Positions 37,027 to 44,697 of a stretch of 44,697 nt of DNA are shown piece by piece (position 1 is the stretch's first letter; each line of letters opens with the position of its first letter). The stretch lies in assembly GCA_947574085.1 (NCBI GenBank), contig CANPIH010000003.1, positions 1 to 44,697 on the forward strand, read 5' to 3'. The translations under genes and the position numbers were made by a program. The notes below the pieces were generated by a model. It had not been told where the DNA came from and made no database searches. It saw only the letters and a program-made list of their open reading frames with translations. Source of the stretch: an uncultured Mycoplasmatota bacterium (GTDB lineage: Bacteria; Bacillota_I; Bacilli_A; RF39; UBA660).

Positions 37027-39009
37027 ATGGAATTAGATAGTATAAAAGGTGTGGGTGCTAAATCCATAGCCTTATTTAATAAATTAAATATTTACAATAT
37101 AGAAGATTTAATAACCTTTTATCCTTATCGTTACAATGTTTATAAACCAGTGGATTTAAAAATAGCTAACGATAATACGAATGTTACTATTAACGCAACC
37201 ATTGAAACGATGCCTAAACTTTCTTATATTAAAAAAAATTTTAATCGTTTATCTTTTAATGTAATAACAAATTCACTACTTGTTCATGTAACGATTTTTA
37301 ATCGTGCTTTTTTATATAAAAACCTAAATATAGGTAAAGAAATTATGTTGGTTGGAAAATACAATCAAAAAACGAATACTTTTCTAGCAAGTGAAATAAA
37401 ATTTGGTTTTGTAAAAGAGTTAAAAATAGAACCTGTTTACCATACAATAAAAGGGCTTAAAAATACTCAAATTCAAAAAGCAATTCAAGAAGTTCTTTCT
37501 AAAGAAGAAAAAATAGTTGATTATGTTCCAAAAGAATTTCAAGAGCAATATCTTTTTTCGACAAAAGAAAAATCTATAAATTTTGTGCATTTACCTAAAA
37601 GTATTAATGAAATAAAACAGGCTAAAGTTCGCCTTATATACGAAGAATTTTTTGTATTTATGTTAAAAATTAATTATTTAAAAAATAGAAGCAAAGAAGC
37701 TGTAGGGGTTGCAAAATCTTTTGATGAACAAAAAATAAAGAGTTTTATTAATGAGTTACCATTTTCTTTAACAAGCGATCAAGAAAATGCTGTTAAAGAG
37801 TGCTTAATGGATTTAAAAAGTGATAAAAAAATGAATCGTTTACTTTTAGGGGATGTTGGTAGCGGAAAAACAATTGTAGCTATTATTTCCATGTACGCTA
37901 CTTTTTTGAGTGGATATCAAAGTTCTTTAATGGCTCCCACAGAAATATTAGCTAGACAGCATTACGAAACTATTAAAAATTTAATGTTTCGATATGGAGC
38001 AAAGGTAGAGTTATTAGTTGGTAGTCAAAAGAAAACAGAGAGAAATCTTATTATAAACAAACTTTTAAGGGGAGAAATAGATATTTTAATTGGTACTCAT
38101 GCTTTATTAAATGATGAAGTGGTTTTTCAAAAATTAGGATTGGTTATTACTGATGAACAGCATCGCTTTGGAGTAAATCAAAGAGGAAATTTACAGAATA
38201 AAGGCATCGTTCCAGATATTATTTATATGAGTGCAACTCCTATTCCTAGAACGTATGCTTTAACAATTTATCAAGATATGGATGCTAGTATAATTAAAAT
38301 GAAACCAAGTGGAAGAAAGGAAGTTAAGACATTTGTTAAAAAAGAAAGTGAATTAAAAATTGTTTTAGTAAGCATTTTAGAAGAAATTAAAAAAGGGCGT
38401 CAAGTATATGTTGTTGCTCCCACTATTTTGGAAAATGAGGAAAGTAATTTGCATGATGTCAATCAATTAAAAGAAAATTTTGAAACAGCTTTTCAAAACA
38501 AAGTAGAAATAGAAGTGTTGCATGGAAAAATGAAAAATCATGATAAAGAAACAATAATGGATCGTTTTAAAAAAGGATTTACTAAAATTTTAATTTCAAC
38601 AACAGTTATTGAAGTTGGAGTTGATGTTCCAAATGCAACCATCATAGTTATTTTTAATGCTGATATGTTTGGACTTGCTACACTTCATCAATTGCGTGGA
38701 AGAGTAGGCAGAAATAATTTAGAATCGTATTGTTATTTAATAAGCAATTCAGATACTGAACGGTTAAAAGTATTAGAGAATAGTACTGATGGATTTTATA
38801 TTAGTGAACAAGACTTTTTAATGCGAAGAGGAGGAGATTTGTTTGGTACAAAACAAAGTGGAGATATGGTTTTTAAATTGGCAGATTTAAAAAGAGATTT
38901 TAAAATTTTATTGCAAGCCAAGATTGACAGTGAAAAGTTTTTAAATGATAATCCTGTTTTAGAAGAAAAATATCAAATGATTTTAAAAAGTGTAGTGCAT
39001 ATTGACTAA
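37027..39009 (+). CDS. recG: ATP-dependent DNA helicase RecG
   Basis: 660 aa; GVGAKSIALFNKL, LTSDQENAVKECLMDL, LLLGDVGSGKT, TDEQHRFGVNQR, YMSATPIPRT, LHQLRGRVGRN, QQDFLMRRGGDLFGTKQSG-type ending. Confidence 0.95.
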   Translation: MELDSIKGVGAKSIALFNKLNIYNIEDLITFYPYRYNVYKPVDLKIANDNTNVTINATIETMPKLSYIKKNFNRLSFNVITNSLLVHVTIFNRAFLYKNLNIGKEIMLVGKYNQKTNTFLASEIKFGFVKELKIEPVYHTIKGLKNTQIQKAIQEVLSKEEKIVDYVPKEFQEQYLFSTKEKSINFVHLPKSINEIKQAKVRLIYEEFFVFMLKINYLKNRSKEAVGVAKSFDEQKIKSFINELPFSLTSDQENAVKECLMDLKSDKKMNRLLLGDVGSGKTIVAIISMYATFLSGYQSSLMAPTEILARQHYETIKNLMFRYGAKVELLVGSQKKTERNLIINKLLRGEIDILIGTHALLNDEVVFQKLGLVITDEQHRFGVNQRGNLQNKGIVPDIIYMSATPIPRTYALTIYQDMDASIIKMKPSGRKEVKTFVKKESELKIVLVSILEEIKKGRQVYVVAPTILENEESNLHDVNQLKENFETAFQNKVEIEVLHGKMKNHDKETIMDRFKKGFTKILISTTVIEVGVDVPNATIIVIFNADMFGLATLHQLRGRVGRNNLESYCYLISNSDTERLKVLENSTDGFYISEQDFLMRRGGDLFGTKQSGDMVFKLADLKRDFKILLQAKIDSEKFLNDNPVLEEKYQMILKSVVHID

Positions 39010-39045
39010 TTTATTTTATAAAATATAATAAGAGAAGGAGGATTT

Positions 39046-39663
39046 ATGAATCGAATAGAAATTAAAGAAAAATCTAAAAAAATAACAAAAGAAAACTTTA
39101 AAAACATTTGGAAAGGATATTTAATCGTCTTAGGGATTTCTTTTTTGTGTAGTTTAGTAATTTCTATTTTCTTTGAGAAAGAAAGTATATTTTATTATAG
39201 TTTGTCTTTGCTTACTTCTTTTTTTACTTCAACATTAACAGCTGGATTTTATTTTTATATTTTAAAAATAGTAAGAAATAAAAATATAGTTAAAGAAGAT
39301 TTATTTAAATTTATAGGAAATGTTTTGCCTATAGTAACTATTTCATTATTAACAACTATCTTTGTATTTTTATTTAGCCTTTTATTTATAATACCAGGAA
39401 TTATTGTTGCACTTAGTTATGCTATGTCACTTTATATATATATTGATAATCCAAACAAAACTCCTATGGAATGTTTATCACAGAGCAAAATTATGATGAA
39501 TGGCTATAAAATGGATTATTTAGTTTTTTGCTTAAGCTTTTTGGGATGGATTTTGTTAGGACTTTTAACTTTTGGAATAGCTCTAATATGGGCAATACCT
39601 TATATAAATGTTGCTCAAGCTCTTTATTATGATGAATTAAAAAAAAGAAAAGAAAAAAATTAA
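39046..39663 (+). CDS. DUF975 family integral membrane protein
   Basis: 205 aa; FKNIWKGYLIVLGISFL, IPGIIVALSYAMSLYIYIDNPNKTPMECLSQSKIMMNGYKMDYLVFCLSFLGWILLG. Confidence 0.85.
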   Translation: MNRIEIKEKSKKITKENFKNIWKGYLIVLGISFLCSLVISIFFEKESIFYYSLSLLTSFFTSTLTAGFYFYILKIVRNKNIVKEDLFKFIGNVLPIVTISLLTTIFVFLFSLLFIIPGIIVALSYAMSLYIYIDNPNKTPMECLSQSKIMMNGYKMDYLVFCLSFLGWILLGLLTFGIALIWAIPYINVAQALYYDELKKRKEKN

Positions 39664-39681
39664 TAAATTAATACGAATTTA

Positions 39682-39710
39682 TTGACAAAGAAGAAAATTC
39701 ATTATATCAT
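39682..39710 (+). promoter_or_regulatory. sRNA-2 promoter TTGACA-N17-TATCAT
   Basis: TTGACA 39682-39687, 17-bp spacer, TATCAT 39705-39710, with no ORF within 270 bp downstream. Confidence 0.7.
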
Positions 39711-39716
39711 TTTAAT

Positions 39717-39828
39717 AGCATGATAAATATCATGCTAACCTTTCGAATCATTCTTACGATTTTATGTGAGAATGAATCAACCAAAACCCCCTGAAGAGGA
39801 CACGACTTAATGTGTCCTCACTTTTTTT
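39717..39828 (+). ncRNA. Candidate free-standing small RNA 'sRNA-2' (about 112 nt)
   Basis: Predicted +1 at 39717 is the first base of hairpin AGCATGA/TCATGCT; second 13-bp hairpin (39745-39757/39766-39778, one mismatch, one GU); single-stranded AACCAAAACCCCCTGAA; intrinsic terminator GAGGACAC/GTGTCCTC + T7. Confidence 0.7.
39796..39828 (+). terminator. Intrinsic terminator of sRNA-2
   Basis: Perfect 8-bp GC-rich stem GAGGACAC-gacttaat-GTGTCCTC followed by ACTTTTTTT. Confidence 0.85.
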
Positions 39829-39878
39829 GCCTAAAAATAAGGGAATTTCAAGGATTGGGAATTTATCAAAAGTGTTTT

Positions 39879-39900
39879 AGTCGACATTTAGTCGACATTT
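39879..39900. repeat. Tandem 11-bp repeat (AGTCGACATTT x2), possible recombinase arm-type sites
   Basis: Exact tandem copies at 39879-39889 and 39890-39900, at the transition into accessory DNA. Confidence 0.5.
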
Positions 39901-39999
39901 TGTGGAAATAACTATTCTAACTTCCTTAATTATTATTTAAGGTATAGTTAATGTATCACAAGAAGTGTATAATATAATTAAAGGAAAGGAAACTGGTAT

Positions 40000-40713
40000 A
40001 TGGATAGTATAGAGATGTTACAAAAGATAATAGATGAATCAGATAATATTGTGTTCTTTGGAGGAGCTGGTGTTTCTACTGAAAGTGGTATTAGAGATTT
40101 TCGAGGAGATAATGGTTTATATAAAGATAAGAATAATTATGAGCCAGAGTATCTATTAAGTTCAAAGTGCTTTCATAATGAACCTGAAGTTTTCTTTGAT
40201 TTTTATAAGAATAAGATGAATTGTTTGGATGCAGTACCTAATGTAACCCATTTGTATTTAAGTAAACTAGAGAAAATTGGGAAACTTAAAGCAATTGTTA
40301 CTCAGAATATAGATGGATTGCATCAAAAGGCTGGAAGTAGTAATGTTTTAGAAATACATGGAACTATTCGTAAGAACCATTGTATCGAATGCAGTAAGGA
40401 ATGTGATTCGGATTTTGTTTTTAATAGTAATGGGATACCTAAATGTGATTGTGGAGGTATAATTAAACCTGATGTTGTATTGTATGGTGATATGTTACCA
40501 GAGGCATTTTCGCTTGCACAAGATCATATAAGTAAAGCTGATACTTTAATTGTGGCTGGTACATCGTTGACAGTAGAGCCAGCAAGTAGTTTGGTTAGAT
40601 TATTTGGTGGTAAGAATTTGATTATTATAAACAAAGATAAAACGCCATATGATAGGTTTGCAACATTAGTAATTAATGACAATTTATCCAATGTATTTGG
40701 GAACCTACATTAA
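40000..40713 (+). CDS. cobB: NAD-dependent protein deacylase, sirtuin (CobB-type, class U/III-like)
   Basis: FFGGAGVSTESGIRDFRGDNGLY, TQNIDGLHQKAGS, EIHGTI, Zn-binding CIEC...CDCGG, VAGTSLTVEPAS. Confidence 0.9.
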   Translation: MDSIEMLQKIIDESDNIVFFGGAGVSTESGIRDFRGDNGLYKDKNNYEPEYLLSSKCFHNEPEVFFDFYKNKMNCLDAVPNVTHLYLSKLEKIGKLKAIVTQNIDGLHQKAGSSNVLEIHGTIRKNHCIECSKECDSDFVFNSNGIPKCDCGGIIKPDVVLYGDMLPEAFSLAQDHISKADTLIVAGTSLTVEPASSLVRLFGGKNLIIINKDKTPYDRFATLVINDNLSNVFGNLH

Positions 40714-40723
40714 TATAATGCTT

Positions 40724-40818
40724 AGAGTCTGCAACACCGAGAGCTATATGTTCTCTACAATTGATAGAAAGTTAGATTTTATAAGGGTTTAACCAATGTG
40801 TTAGACTCTTTTCTTTTG
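40724..40818 (+). ncRNA. Structured RNA / elaborate terminator downstream of cobB
   Basis: Closing stem AGAGTCT(gc)AACAC / GTGTTAGACTCT encloses about 60 nt including GAGA/TCTC hairpin, followed immediately by TTTTCTTTT; TATAAT at 40714-40719. Confidence 0.4.
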
Positions 40819-40825
40819 CTCAAGT

Positions 40826-40851
40826 GTATCAAAAACGTATCAAAAGTATCA
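40826..40851. repeat. Three GTATCA direct repeats
   Basis: GTATCA at 40826, 40837 and 40846 within tgtatcaaaaacgtatcaaaagtatcag. Confidence 0.5.
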
Positions 40852-41109
40852 GTTTTTTATGAAATGTAACAAGAATAATTGAAAGTTTAATTTTATTTCG
40901 TATATTATGATAGATGATTATATAATCATCGATATTTGCAGCACAGATTTTCAACTTAGATACGAGATTGTGCGGCTTCTGGGAAAGCATATTCAACCTC
41001 GTTAAACGCACTAAGAATAATAATACTAGTAGTAAAGATATTAATTATTCAAATTTAAATCTAAACTTTAATTTAAACATTTTAAAGAAAGATTTATTTT
41101 AACAGTAAG

Positions 41110-41290
41110 GTAATCTCAGGAGAATAGAAAGATTTTTTTACAGGTATATAGTAGAGATTACAAATTTAGTAACTACAGATACAAAGAGTATCTAGGTTAT
41201 ATGAGAAAAGATTTATTTTAGTAATTTGTTCTAAAGGTGGTTAAATTCTTTAATACTTGGGACGCTGGGTATTTGGATTACACCTTTAGA
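41110..41290. ncRNA. Candidate structured non-coding region upstream of the 41350 ORF
   Basis: Successive perfect inverted repeats: GTAATCTC (41110-41117)/GAGATTAC (41154-41161); AGATAC (41177-41182)/GTATCT (41188-41193); TCTAAAGGTG (41230-41239)/CACCTTTAGA (41281-41290) with inner AATAC/GTATT. Confidence 0.4.
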
Positions 41291-41349
41291 GAACGATTCA
41301 CAAAGTGGCTAGAAATGGCCAAATATTGTGTTTTTTGAAAGGAAGTTAT

Positions 41350-41772
41350 ATGGCGGTGCCGAAGAAATTGAAAAATTGGTTGATAAAGATACAAAATCCT
41401 TATACCAGATGCAAACTGGTTGTCTATGAGGATGGACGCTTCTATGTTGATGGTAGTGGTCCATTGATCGGATACTTAAAAGCTGGAGCCCTTAGAGAAA
41501 TAAAGAGCTTAATTAATGAGTTTTTGCCAACTATTAAGCAAAATGGATATCATGTTCAAGAAAAAGATGGATTCATAACCAAATTTTGGGATCATAGCAA
41601 CAAGAAACGAGATGATCTTAAGGTTAAAGGTTGGAAATATGAGTGTCATCTTTTAAGAATATTTTTCAACGTGAATAATTTTAGAAAATTTAAGGTCAGT
41701 ATGCCTGAATTTTATTCCATTATGTCTGATTTTTTAGAAACTAAGACTGTGGAGCGTTCAAATGAAAGATAA
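41350..41772 (+). CDS. Hypothetical protein (paralog of the downstream ORF)
   Basis: ORF 41305-41772; ATG at 41350 preceded by GAAAGGAAG is the likelier start; NWLIKIQNPYTRCKLVVYEDGRFYVDG. Confidence 0.6.
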   Translation: MAVPKKLKNWLIKIQNPYTRCKLVVYEDGRFYVDGSGPLIGYLKAGALREIKSLINEFLPTIKQNGYHVQEKDGFITKFWDHSNKKRDDLKVKGWKYECHLLRIFFNVNNFRKFKVSMPEFYSIMSDFLETKTVERSNER

Positions 41773-42208
41773 AACTTGGTTAATTATGCTTATTAAAGAG
41801 CAAACGGATGGAATTTATACTGTAACGATTACTGAAGATGGTTATGTTTTAGATAACAAGAAGAAAAAAGTAGTCGTTTTGAAGAAGTCAACTATGGAAG
41901 AACTTAATAAACTGATGATTGAGTATAAAAACCCTAATTTAAGTGATGATTTTGATTCAAAATTTATGGTGAAATTCAATGGTGATACTAATAAGTTCAC
42001 GAGTAATGATAAGGAACTCTATTCTAAAATCATTGATATAGTTTTTAAAGAAGATAATATTAAGCATCCACCTAAGTTGCTAGATTCTGCGATATCTTTA
42101 ATTGAAAGGTTGCGAGCAACTGGAGAGCTAGATGCAATGATTGAAGCAAATGGAATGGATGCAACAGTAGATGCATTACTTGCTATATGTCAGTTAGAAA
42201 ACGAATAA
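41762..42208 (+). CDS. Hypothetical protein (paralog of the upstream ORF)
   Basis: 148 aa; overlaps the upstream stop; TWLIMLIKEQTDGIYTVTITEDGYVLD aligns by eye with the 41350 product. Confidence 0.6.
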   Translation: MKDKTWLIMLIKEQTDGIYTVTITEDGYVLDNKKKKVVVLKKSTMEELNKLMIEYKNPNLSDDFDSKFMVKFNGDTNKFTSNDKELYSKIIDIVFKEDNIKHPPKLLDSAISLIERLRATGELDAMIEANGMDATVDALLAICQLENE

Positions 42209-42282
42209 TAGATTACCTTTTAACTATACAAACTAACTTTATTTGAAATAAATGATTAATAATTTATAACAATATTGACTTA

Positions 42283-42318
42283 TCCTTTGATATAGAGGTT
42301 AAATACAAAATCAAAGGA
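42283..42318. promoter_or_regulatory. 9-bp inverted repeat TCCTTTGAT/ATCAAAGGA overlapping promoter and SD of the 42328 ORF
   Basis: Perfect arms 42283-42291 and 42310-42318; 3' arm includes the AAAGGA Shine-Dalgarno; TTGACT at 42275-42280. Confidence 0.5.
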
Positions 42319-42327
42319 GTTAGAAAT

Positions 42328-42678
42328 ATGAAAGATAAAAAGATACAAAGATACAAAGATAAATTTGAAAATAAACCATTTCCACCACATAATTTCATTA
42401 CTAAAGAACTTATTAGACGTAAGTTTATTACTGATGATTCAGATTTTGATTTATATTTATGGGATGCAATATTTGAGGATTTACTTCAGAGATTTGAGTT
42501 TAAGGTTGTTCTGATTTGTACTGGTTACACTATATCCTGTATAAAGAGGAATCATTTTAAAGATGAAGAAAACAAACCTATTGAATGTTTGTATGCATAT
42601 TTTAGAGTTGCTCTACAGGCCAATATCGAGAAGTATCTTAGGCCACCTGTTTATATTGACTGGATGGATTATAACTAG
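42328..42678 (+). CDS. Hypothetical protein
   Basis: 116 aa, ATG with AAAGGAG SD at 42314-42320; no family recognised with confidence. Confidence 0.6.
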   Translation: MKDKKIQRYKDKFENKPFPPHNFITKELIRRKFITDDSDFDLYLWDAIFEDLLQRFEFKVVLICTGYTISCIKRNHFKDEENKPIECLYAYFRVALQANIEKYLRPPVYIDWMDYN

Positions 42679-43023
42679 CTATTTTATATATTAAGTTAGT
42701 GTTAAAGGATTTATTTATGATTAAATTATATGAAGAAATAACTACTAACTTAAGACAATTAAGTGAAGCGGATATTCAAGATCTGCTGAATTTTGTTCTT
42801 CTTTGCTATGGGTAGTCTATTGTTCTATCTGTATGATTAGGTGTCTTAGAAGTTGTTTTAGGGTTGTTTTTTACTTTTCAAAAAGTTACCCAAGTAGAAC
42901 CAAGGAACAATTTTTTTAATTCGATATTTCATATGGTTTTATGTAAATTTTTGATAATTGTAATAAAACCTATGTATTTTTTAGTTTTTAAGTTATAATG
43001 ACAACGATATGGAGGAATGAATT

Positions 43024-43350
43024 TTGTTTAGATTTGAAGATGGCGAAGATATAACACCAGAAGAACATGCTACAATTGTAGAACCATTTTTCGAAGTATG
43101 TACTGAACACCTAGAAAAGAAGATAGCACCAAGTTTTGTATGTTTTTTCATTGTAACTGGTTATAGGCGAAATGCACTATGGCAAGCACCTTTGGATATT
43201 TTTATCGGTTCAGCACTAGATATGTTAAATTTTGAGTGTAAGGATTATGCAACTCTTAAAGAAAAGGTTATTAAAATATTGTATAATAGGTATAAGTTAA
43301 GAGTAATAAACGAGGATCCTTTAGACTTTGAGGAAGTGAGGAAATTATGA
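43024..43350 (+). CDS. Small acidic hypothetical protein (tandem paralog 1)
   Basis: 108 aa, TTG start with GGAGGA SD; ATGA overlap with the next ORF; shares F/Y...GY...AL(W/F)...L pattern. Confidence 0.65.
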   Translation: MFRFEDGEDITPEEHATIVEPFFEVCTEHLEKKIAPSFVCFFIVTGYRRNALWQAPLDIFIGSALDMLNFECKDYATLKEKVIKILYNRYKLRVINEDPLDFEEVRKL

Positions 43351-43670
43351 TTCGATCTGATTTTGATATTAGCGAAGAAGATTATGACAAAATAAGTATA
43401 CCTTTTGGTAATGCACTTGATGAGTATTTAAGAGATAATTTTATTTATGATTGGATGGCTTTCTATGTTGCTAAGGGTTACCAGATGGATGCTTTATTTG
43501 AGGGAACCCTAAGTGGTGTTTTCAACGCCGCAATTGATAGTGTATGTGATATTAAATTTGGTTCTACTGAAGATATCGAGAGACTTAAAGCAATTTTGAA
43601 AGATAAGTACAACCTTTTATTAACAAGTGATACTCATTTAGAGATTGAAGAGATACCAACACGAAAATAG
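43347..43670 (+). CDS. Small acidic hypothetical protein (tandem paralog 2)
   Basis: 107 aa; DISEEDYDKISIPFGNALDEYL..., translationally coupled to paralog 1; about 22 D/E vs 11 K/R. Confidence 0.65.
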   Translation: MIRSDFDISEEDYDKISIPFGNALDEYLRDNFIYDWMAFYVAKGYQMDALFEGTLSGVFNAAIDSVCDIKFGSTEDIERLKAILKDKYNLLLTSDTHLEIEEIPTRK

Positions 43671-43710
43671 GATCAGTTATTGCAACTGGTCCTATTTATA
43701 TGTTATCAAT

Positions 43711-43989
43711 TTATTGTTTTTCTACATCTTCTGTTTCTTCAAAGAGTTTAGACAATGGTACGTTCAATGCCTTTGCAAATCCATAGGCAGTACCAATGCT
43801 ACATGTTTGATGTACTGATTTAGATTCAAGATTTTTTATGAAACTTAGAGCATATCTACTTTTTATGGAAAGTTGTTCTTGGGTAAGTCCAGCTTCTTTT
43901 CGATATTTCTTTAGGTTTCTTGCTAACAAAATGTATGCGTAGTTCTCATCGATTTTATCCATTTGTTCCACCTCATTTAATTTTATCAA
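43711..43989 (-). CDS. XRE-family helix-turn-helix transcriptional regulator
   Basis: LARNLKKYRKEAGLTQEQLSIKSRYALSFIKNLESKSVHQTCSIGTAYGFAKALNVPLSKLF. Confidence 0.85.
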   Translation of the reverse strand: MIKLNEVEQMDKIDENYAYILLARNLKKYRKEAGLTQEQLSIKSRYALSFIKNLESKSVHQTCSIGTAYGFAKALNVPLSKLFEETEDVEKQ

Positions 43990-44012
43990 TAAAAATTATT
44001 ATAAAAGGTCTA

Positions 44013-44040
44013 TTGTTCACATACTATTTTGTGATATAAT
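44013..44040 (+). promoter_or_regulatory. Promoter TTGTTC-N16-TATAAT with embedded TCACA-N8-TGTGA operator-like repeat
   Basis: TTGTTC 44013-44018, TATAAT 44035-44040; TCACA 44017-44021 and TGTGA 44030-44034 in the XRE/GIY-YIG divergent gap. Confidence 0.5.
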
Positions 44041-44063
44041 ATCCTTGATGAGGTGGTGTTTTT

Positions 44064-44697
44064 ATGAGTAAAATTTCTAATGGTGAGGGGTTTATCTATG
44101 TATATCCGTGTATAATGGGTGGTACAAAGAATCTTTGTAAGATAGGTGTAACTGACAATTTTAAGGAAAGGATGAGTCAGCATGTTCGCACTCCATATCA
44201 TGGTTTCAATTGCATGCTAAACTACCCTAGTTATAAACCTATTGCTACGGCTCTTCGAATAAAAAATATGGATATAGCTGATGAGTTAGTTAAAGATTAT
44301 TTTAAAGATTATCAATTGGCAGGAATCGAGGTATACAATATCAATTATAATGTTAGTATCCAAGAACTTTATAACCTTTTGTATGAACATAAACAATATG
44401 TGGAACTAATAGAAGATGGTGTTACTGATTATGGTTTTCTTGTATTAAAAGAAGAAGTTAAAGTTGATACAACTAAGCCAGTGTTTGAAGCTCTTAGAGA
44501 TAAAATTTTATCTAAGTACAATGATGAATTACCTGAGGAGTTGCTACTACTTTTGCGCGATGTAGAAGAATTTAAAACACATTGTTCATCACATTATGAA
44601 ACGGGAAATTTTGTCGAATTTTTTGATGGCTTAGTGTTAGATATTGGTGTTTGCAAAGCTAGTAGAGCTTTACTACTAAATAAGTTACAAGAATTAT
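44064..44697 (+). CDS. GIY-YIG/T5orf172 (MUG113-like) domain protein, truncated by window end
   Basis: Open frame from ATG 44064 to the window end with no stop: MSKISNGEGFIYVYPCIMGGTKNLCKIGVTDNFKERMSQHVRTPYHGF...; FIYVY...CKIGVTDNFKER fits the N-terminal GIY-YIG-type motif. Not in the supplied ORF track. Confidence 0.65.
   Translation, partial: MSKISNGEGFIYVYPCIMGGTKNLCKIGVTDNFKERMSQHVRTPYHGFNCMLNYPSYKPIATALRIKNMDIADELVKDYFKDYQLAGIEVYNINYNVSIQELYNLLYEHKQYVELIEDGVTDYGFLVLKEEVKVDTTKPVFEALRDKILSKYNDELPEELLLLLRDVEEFKTHCSSHYETGNFVEFFDGLVLDIGVCKASRALLLNKLQEL

Follow-up and report, generated by a model that had tools for sequence, protein, structure and literature searches.

The stretch of DNA analysed here (the window: 44,697 nt, contig CANPIH010000003.1 of assembly GCA_947574085.1, from an uncultured Mycoplasmatota bacterium) carries at positions 39682-39828 of the forward strand a locus whose reading as a stand-alone small RNA (sRNA) gene, with a putative transcript of ~110 nt, is strongly supported. 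By comparison between genomes, the RNA is a real and new family that typifies a single large family of uncultured Bacilli. With a probability of roughly 60%, it is a trans-acting, antitoxin-like silencer of many dispersed toxin-like peptide genes, a role whose repression, toxicity and multi-target components are inferred from sequence comparison. The invariant unpaired segment UCAACCAAAACCCCCUGAA would pair with AGGGGGUUUUGG(UUGA) in messenger RNAs (mRNAs) of short hydrophobic, presumably membrane-active peptides resembling type I toxins. Pairing in the 5' untranslated region (5'UTR) just upstream of the Shine-Dalgarno sequence would block translation initiation, with ACCUUUC additionally covering the Shine-Dalgarno GAAAGG in the genus of the window, and pairing just after the stop codon would probably favour mRNA decay. 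On comparative evidence, prophages and other integrative elements use the conserved 3' end of the gene as a bacterial attachment site (attB) and restore the terminator.

Conservation and structure of the RNA

The sRNA sequence is found in 18 of the 22 genomes of the genus, and within the family its covariance model matches 159 of the 243 genomes, spread over 114 of 148 genera, normally with one copy per genome. The promoter and the linker are nearly invariant in the genus alignment, where covariation is seen in hairpin 2 and the terminator varies freely in sequence. Among 45 aligned family members, CAACCAAAACCCCCUGAA is identical in all and CAACCAAAACCCCCTGAA (the linker, proposed as seed) is present in all; TTGAC is found upstream in 43 and a -10 element in 45, and a stem with T-run lies downstream of the linker in 41 of 43. 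Changes on both sides affect 17 of 20 base pairs and the covariation score is 0.328, against 0.159 +/- 0.009 for shuffled alignments and at most 0.062 for slid controls, in an alignment that was fitted to the structure and leans towards it. Helix 2 is also supported by the genus alignment, which was not structure-fitted. The gene recG and a DUF975 gene are found upstream in most loci of the genus, and the DUF975 gene keeps this position in a relative from another genus (L024). The DUF975 ortholog is likewise missing or truncated in the four genomes of the genus in which the RNA was not found (G001, G002, G011 and G012), so that assembly gaps are likely there. In a class-wide genome sample the RNA is essentially confined to this family. 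The only outside match in that sample, in another family of the same class (G370; L330, C5 about 1305-1373), is by eye a genuine copy, with the promoter, both hairpins, ACCAAAACCCCCUGAAG and a terminator, which suggests a rare transfer or an older origin.

The features of the locus in the window are:

39682-39828, + strand: sRNA gene locus with promoter, two hairpins, C-rich single-stranded linker and intrinsic terminator
39682-39710, + strand: promoter TTGACA-N17-TATCAT (TTGACA 39682-39687, 17-nt spacer, TATCAT 39705-39710)
39716-39737, + strand: hairpin 1 (TAGCATGATA / TATCATGCTA), arms invariant in the genus and compensated in the family
39738-39744, + strand: linker 1 ACCUUUC, unchanged across the genus and complementary to the Shine-Dalgarno GAAAGG(U) of 5'UTR-type targets
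39745-39778, + strand: hairpin 2, strongly covarying
39776-39795, + strand: linker AUCAACCAAAACCCCCUGAA, the proposed seed, invariant; the left boundary of integrative elements lies at it or just 3'
39796-39828, + strand: intrinsic terminator, stem 39796-39819, then A-C-T7 to 39828
37027-39663, + strand: conserved upstream neighbours, recG (37027-39009) and the DUF975 gene (39046-39663)

This layout had been proposed in an earlier reading of the window (hereafter the original prediction), which it largely bears out. The promoter matches the consensus at 11 of 12 positions, the claimed +1 hairpin begins at the proposed +1 (39717) or 1 nt before it, AACCAAAACCCCCUGAA is unpaired at 39779-39795, and the terminator ends in the T7 run. 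The second hairpin is present, with 12 pairs and a 1x1 internal mismatch in the minimum free energy fold in place of the 13 bp announced. Dinucleotide shuffles of segment 39717-39828 give -13.5 +/- 2.6 kcal/mol and the segment itself -36.9 (z -9.0, 0/200), a stability well beyond chance. Terminator-like sites number 6 within 38000-42000 for 0.9 expected.

The locus also behaves as the stand-alone gene that had been claimed, with its own conserved promoter, an intrinsic terminator, conserved covarying structure, no conserved coding frame, and upstream synteny followed by genes that are unrelated between species. Because the downstream genes differ, the RNA is not the leader or attenuator of one of them, and that reading is ruled out; their variation is attributed to the RNA 3' end being an attachment site (see below). 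The Rfam search that the original prediction had recommended gave no match in the window at gathering level and chance-level matches only in the region at E<=10; by this measure the RNA is not a member of RsaE/RoxS or of any other Rfam family. The literature searches made turned up no paper on this RNA or on an sRNA gene 3' end used as integration site. The locus had further been described as devoid of open reading frames (ORFs), which has to be amended, since a 24-codon ATG frame (39720-39794) is open in the window and would be the basis for a small protein or leader peptide gene. This frame has no Shine-Dalgarno sequence, its start lies 3-4 nt from the predicted +1 within a hairpin, and it is not conserved: an ATG frame reaches the C5 run unbroken in just 28 of the 45 family members, indels shift it, and 17 members have no ATG frame open through the linker. 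Compensatory changes track pairing, not codons, and the coding reading, scarcely credible on these grounds, was rejected.

Candidate targets of the seed

Outside the RNA gene, the 12-nt seed complement AGGGGGTTTTGG was counted ~18 times in the genus, versus 4 for the reversed pattern, and seed complements occur at ~27 non-RNA sites in 193 family genomes versus 14-16 control sites. Next to the real sites, ORFs such as MNKKDLLIMVLLLIIILLIIFN, MKNTSFYKLVILLLFCIIIMLIILMYIK, MNKKCREDIFLLIVLILVLALLILIIKN and MKKDCQILFHYIIILLLLVIIIYLLNQQ are found time and again. Under a fixed rule for a target ORF (short, with a Shine-Dalgarno sequence and a hydrophobic 14-residue stretch), 15 of 43 seed-complement contexts pass; none of the 16 control contexts does, and random positions pass in 0.5% of cases. 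A scan of 38 genomes allowing one mismatch adds targets in G006, G010, G021, G028, G033, G045 and G189. Its sites adjoin such a short hydrophobic ORF in 4 of 4 cases when exact, in 9 of 31 when the mismatch is at positions 1, 2 or 12, and in 0 of 55 when it is at positions 3-9: mismatches within the seed abolish the association.

Several further matches were discarded as coincidences: those antisense to a RecU-like gene (L087, L092, L094), one inside a proline-rich ORF (L086) and one in a formate-tetrahydrofolate ligase-like gene of the window's own genome (L131). Four others (L100, L107, L122, L123) are RNA genes themselves.

The candidate targets are found in two ARRANGEMENTS, 5'UTR-type and 3'-type. 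In the former the site lies 26-58 nt before the start codon, upstream of the Shine-Dalgarno sequence, and most sites have a consensus promoter 30-70 nt upstream. In the genus, linker 1 (ACCUUUC) also complements the GAAAG(G) of their Shine-Dalgarno regions, which makes the RNA look like a collinear antisense to the target 5'UTR. The 3' arm of hairpin 1 could pair with a target start codon. GAAAGG is found upstream of only 3 of 34 ORFs of the window. Predicted duplexes with the genome's own RNA range from -36 to -61 kcal/mol (-61 in G010), and pairing at two sites, seed and Shine-Dalgarno, is predicted in G010 and G014. Several candidate mRNAs have complementary 5' and 3' ends. In G014 a gene for a 276-aa protein (MITEQKVLLKDEFAKK...) is present three times, with near-identical 5'UTRs that each contain a 16-nt seed complement; the protein has no Pfam or PADLOC match, and its tentative assignment as a PD-(D/E)XK nuclease found no confirmation. 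Its loci are:

L105 1542-2372, L093, L118 and L120: G014 276-aa protein loci, 16-nt seed complement in the 5'UTR

Note that in another genome (L124/L127, G109 C2) the MNKKCREDIFLLIVLILVLALLILIIKN gene is found in tandem, 396 bp apart, with a seed site in each 5'UTR.

The C-rich linker thus keeps the role of pairing determinant given to it by the original prediction, as its invariance and the target analysis indicate. The targeting of Shine-Dalgarno regions calls for refinement: the C-rich sequence would pair upstream of them or past the stop codon, with ACCUUUC placed opposite the Shine-Dalgarno sequence. A regulon of the RsaE/LhrC kind is not what emerges; the likely targets are toxin-like short hydrophobic ORFs. 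The RNA could nevertheless be a general regulator of the RsaE/RoxS or csRNA kind, acting by 7-9 nt of C-rich pairing at the Shine-Dalgarno sequence of metabolic mRNAs, with the toxin-like genes secondary and having evolved a strong site to exploit it. Its unpaired C-rich linker, its status as a single-copy core gene with conserved synteny, and a seed that is invariant even where the genome has no detected toxin-like target agree with such a role. It is set against by the contexts of mismatched or partial sites, which upon reading are not concentrated at other genes, and by an invariant linker of 17-20 nt that exceeds the need of such seeds; we consider it unlikely, while deserving attention.

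In the 3'-type arrangement the site lies 11-26 nt past the stop codon. On the opposite strand a promoter-like -10 recurs with little variation in spacing, together with two hairpins of which the second has a U-run, and these loci are predicted to encode a cis antisense RNA of their own, laid out much like the sRNA. At L098, L083, L085, L121, L238, L111 and L320 a predicted antisense RNA with promoter, two hairpins and U-run converges on a short hydrophobic ORF, which makes them candidate new type I toxin-antitoxin loci of uncultured Bacilli. The sRNA and the antisense RNAs of toxin loci might also be homologous by descent, the former being a solitary type I antitoxin whose toxin was lost, so that the linker would reflect ancestry and not present trans-regulation. 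The order on the strand opposite the 3'-type ORFs (-10 at constant distance, hairpin 1, hairpin 2, then CCAAAACCCCCU) and the weak matches of the RNA model to these loci are compatible with that idea. The unpaired seed alone is shared, the hairpin sequences differ, the 3'-type hairpin 2 with its U-run resembles a terminator ahead of the motif, and the motif in 5'UTR-type targets has no consistently placed antisense promoter, all of which makes this descent improbable.

Several observations weigh against the antitoxin-like role proposed for the RNA. No target was detected in the window's own genome (86% complete), exact-seed targets are found only in a minority of RNA-bearing genomes, which does not fully explain a near-universal seed, and G118 (99% complete), G109 and G095 have targets with no RNA detected. 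The trans RNA may be redundant at 3'-type loci, given the local predicted antisense RNA. Loci were counted without correction for relatedness between them. The pairing energies are circular, as targets were found by the seed; the independent evidence is only the enrichment and the effect of mismatch position.

The RNA 3' end as a site of integration

Past CUGAA, the terminator and its flank switch among unrelated versions, and identical versions recur across genera. Terminators are 96-100% identical between different genera whose RNA bodies are 48-70% identical: the terminator side has 100% identity versus 62% for the RNA body in G004/G045 and 98% versus 48% in G183/G098, and in G009/G140 the first 46-55 nt are identical with RNA bodies 70% and upstream flanks 53% identical. 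Tyrosine integrases (PF00589) are convergent on the RNA in G017, G018 and G003. The prophage contig L208 from IMG/VR (16.9 kb) terminates within the RNA gene of its host, towards which its integrase is oriented; it is the exception among 16-mer scans of viral contigs, which otherwise gave chance coding matches, and blastn against phages and plasmids gave no real match. Tandem ~11-bp repeats, read as inferred integrase arm sites, are found at a similar distance after the RNA in 14 of 35 loci, and many contigs break off some 58 nt beyond the linker, in keeping with a hotspot. With an integrase at the junction and flanks exchanged between lineages, the conserved RNA 3' end is, on comparative grounds, an attB for prophages and other integrative elements, a hotspot role of the terminator that the original prediction could not have revealed. 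The same comparisons indicate that the terminator sequence is supplied by the inserted element, its structure being always restored. The corresponding features of the window are:

39877-39898, + strand: tandem 11-bp repeat TTTAGTCGACA x2, putative integrase arm-type sites of the inserted element
39829-44697, + strand: element-borne DNA with a SIR2 gene (40000-40713), small ORFs of unknown function, a helix-turn-helix regulator and a T5orf172 protein

The terminator of the window, the tandem repeat and the stand-alone SIR2 gene belong to one element, which runs to the contig end (44697), its far boundary being beyond view; the same terminator and SIR2 gene are found behind the RNA in G045, of another genus. 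Genome G016 contains one more RNA 3' end (L095, C35 end), which has another terminator and is cut at the contig end; it is either a further element junction or the product of a strain mixture.

The integrases, the arm-like repeats and the exchange of terminators at the 3' end could mean that the feature is mainly a recombination site, kept invariant by integrative elements and not by an RNA function. The promoter, hairpin 1 and the covarying hairpin 2 lie outside any attachment core and are conserved with synteny, and elements always restore the terminator; already disfavoured by the covariation, this interpretation is very improbable. A doubtful extension of the antitoxin-like role is that the vertically inherited core sRNA would be a common antitoxin and the unlinked peptide genes would guard its locus, an integration hotspot. 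If true, an inserting element that failed to reconstitute a functional RNA 3' end would release the peptides from control, and the host would die.

Significance and comparison with known systems

More than a hundred genera of uncultured Bacilli carry the RNA family added here, for which a testable job is proposed. The locus is also a clear example of an integration hotspot at the 3' end of an sRNA gene, where elements swap in new terminators, a process that complicates assembly and annotation of these genomes. If the proposed role is true, a single-copy RNA acting at a distance on many toxin-like genes would break the rule that each type I locus has its own antitoxin.

The trans-pairing RNA antitoxins of type I toxin-antitoxin systems (IstR-1/tisB, OrzO/zorO) offer a parallel: the sRNA is likewise complementary to a region ahead of the start codon, in the 5'UTR of mRNAs that encode short hydrophobic peptides, and several candidate mRNAs have the complementary ends described above. 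Known trans-pairing antitoxins adjoin the toxin gene and act essentially on their cognate toxin, according to one account (PMC3919570), and mostly only cognate antitoxins work in C. difficile (PMC6563280). The RNA described here is, in contrast, a single-copy core gene at the recG-DUF975 locus, unlinked to the peptide genes, which lie on other contigs, and matches many divergent ones. Complementarity to a candidate toxin mRNA (12-16+ nt) is found in relatives, not in the window's genome, and the candidate targets encode small hydrophobic peptides in the 15 of 43 contexts mentioned.

RsaE/RoxS, LhrC and the csRNAs are Firmicutes sRNAs with C-rich seeds. The new RNA resembles them in its stand-alone gene, hairpins, unpaired C-rich segment and intrinsic terminator, and differs in the lack of an Rfam match, a longer invariant linker, another target class and a lineage-restricted distribution. 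The 3' ends of transfer RNA (tRNA) and transfer-messenger RNA (tmRNA) genes are attachment sites for tyrosine-integrase elements. Insertion at a gene 3' end by an element that carries the restoring sequence is common to both situations, but the target here is an sRNA with its terminator, and while an identical gene end is restored in tRNA and tmRNA genes, the sRNA gene receives a structurally equivalent terminator of unrelated sequence.
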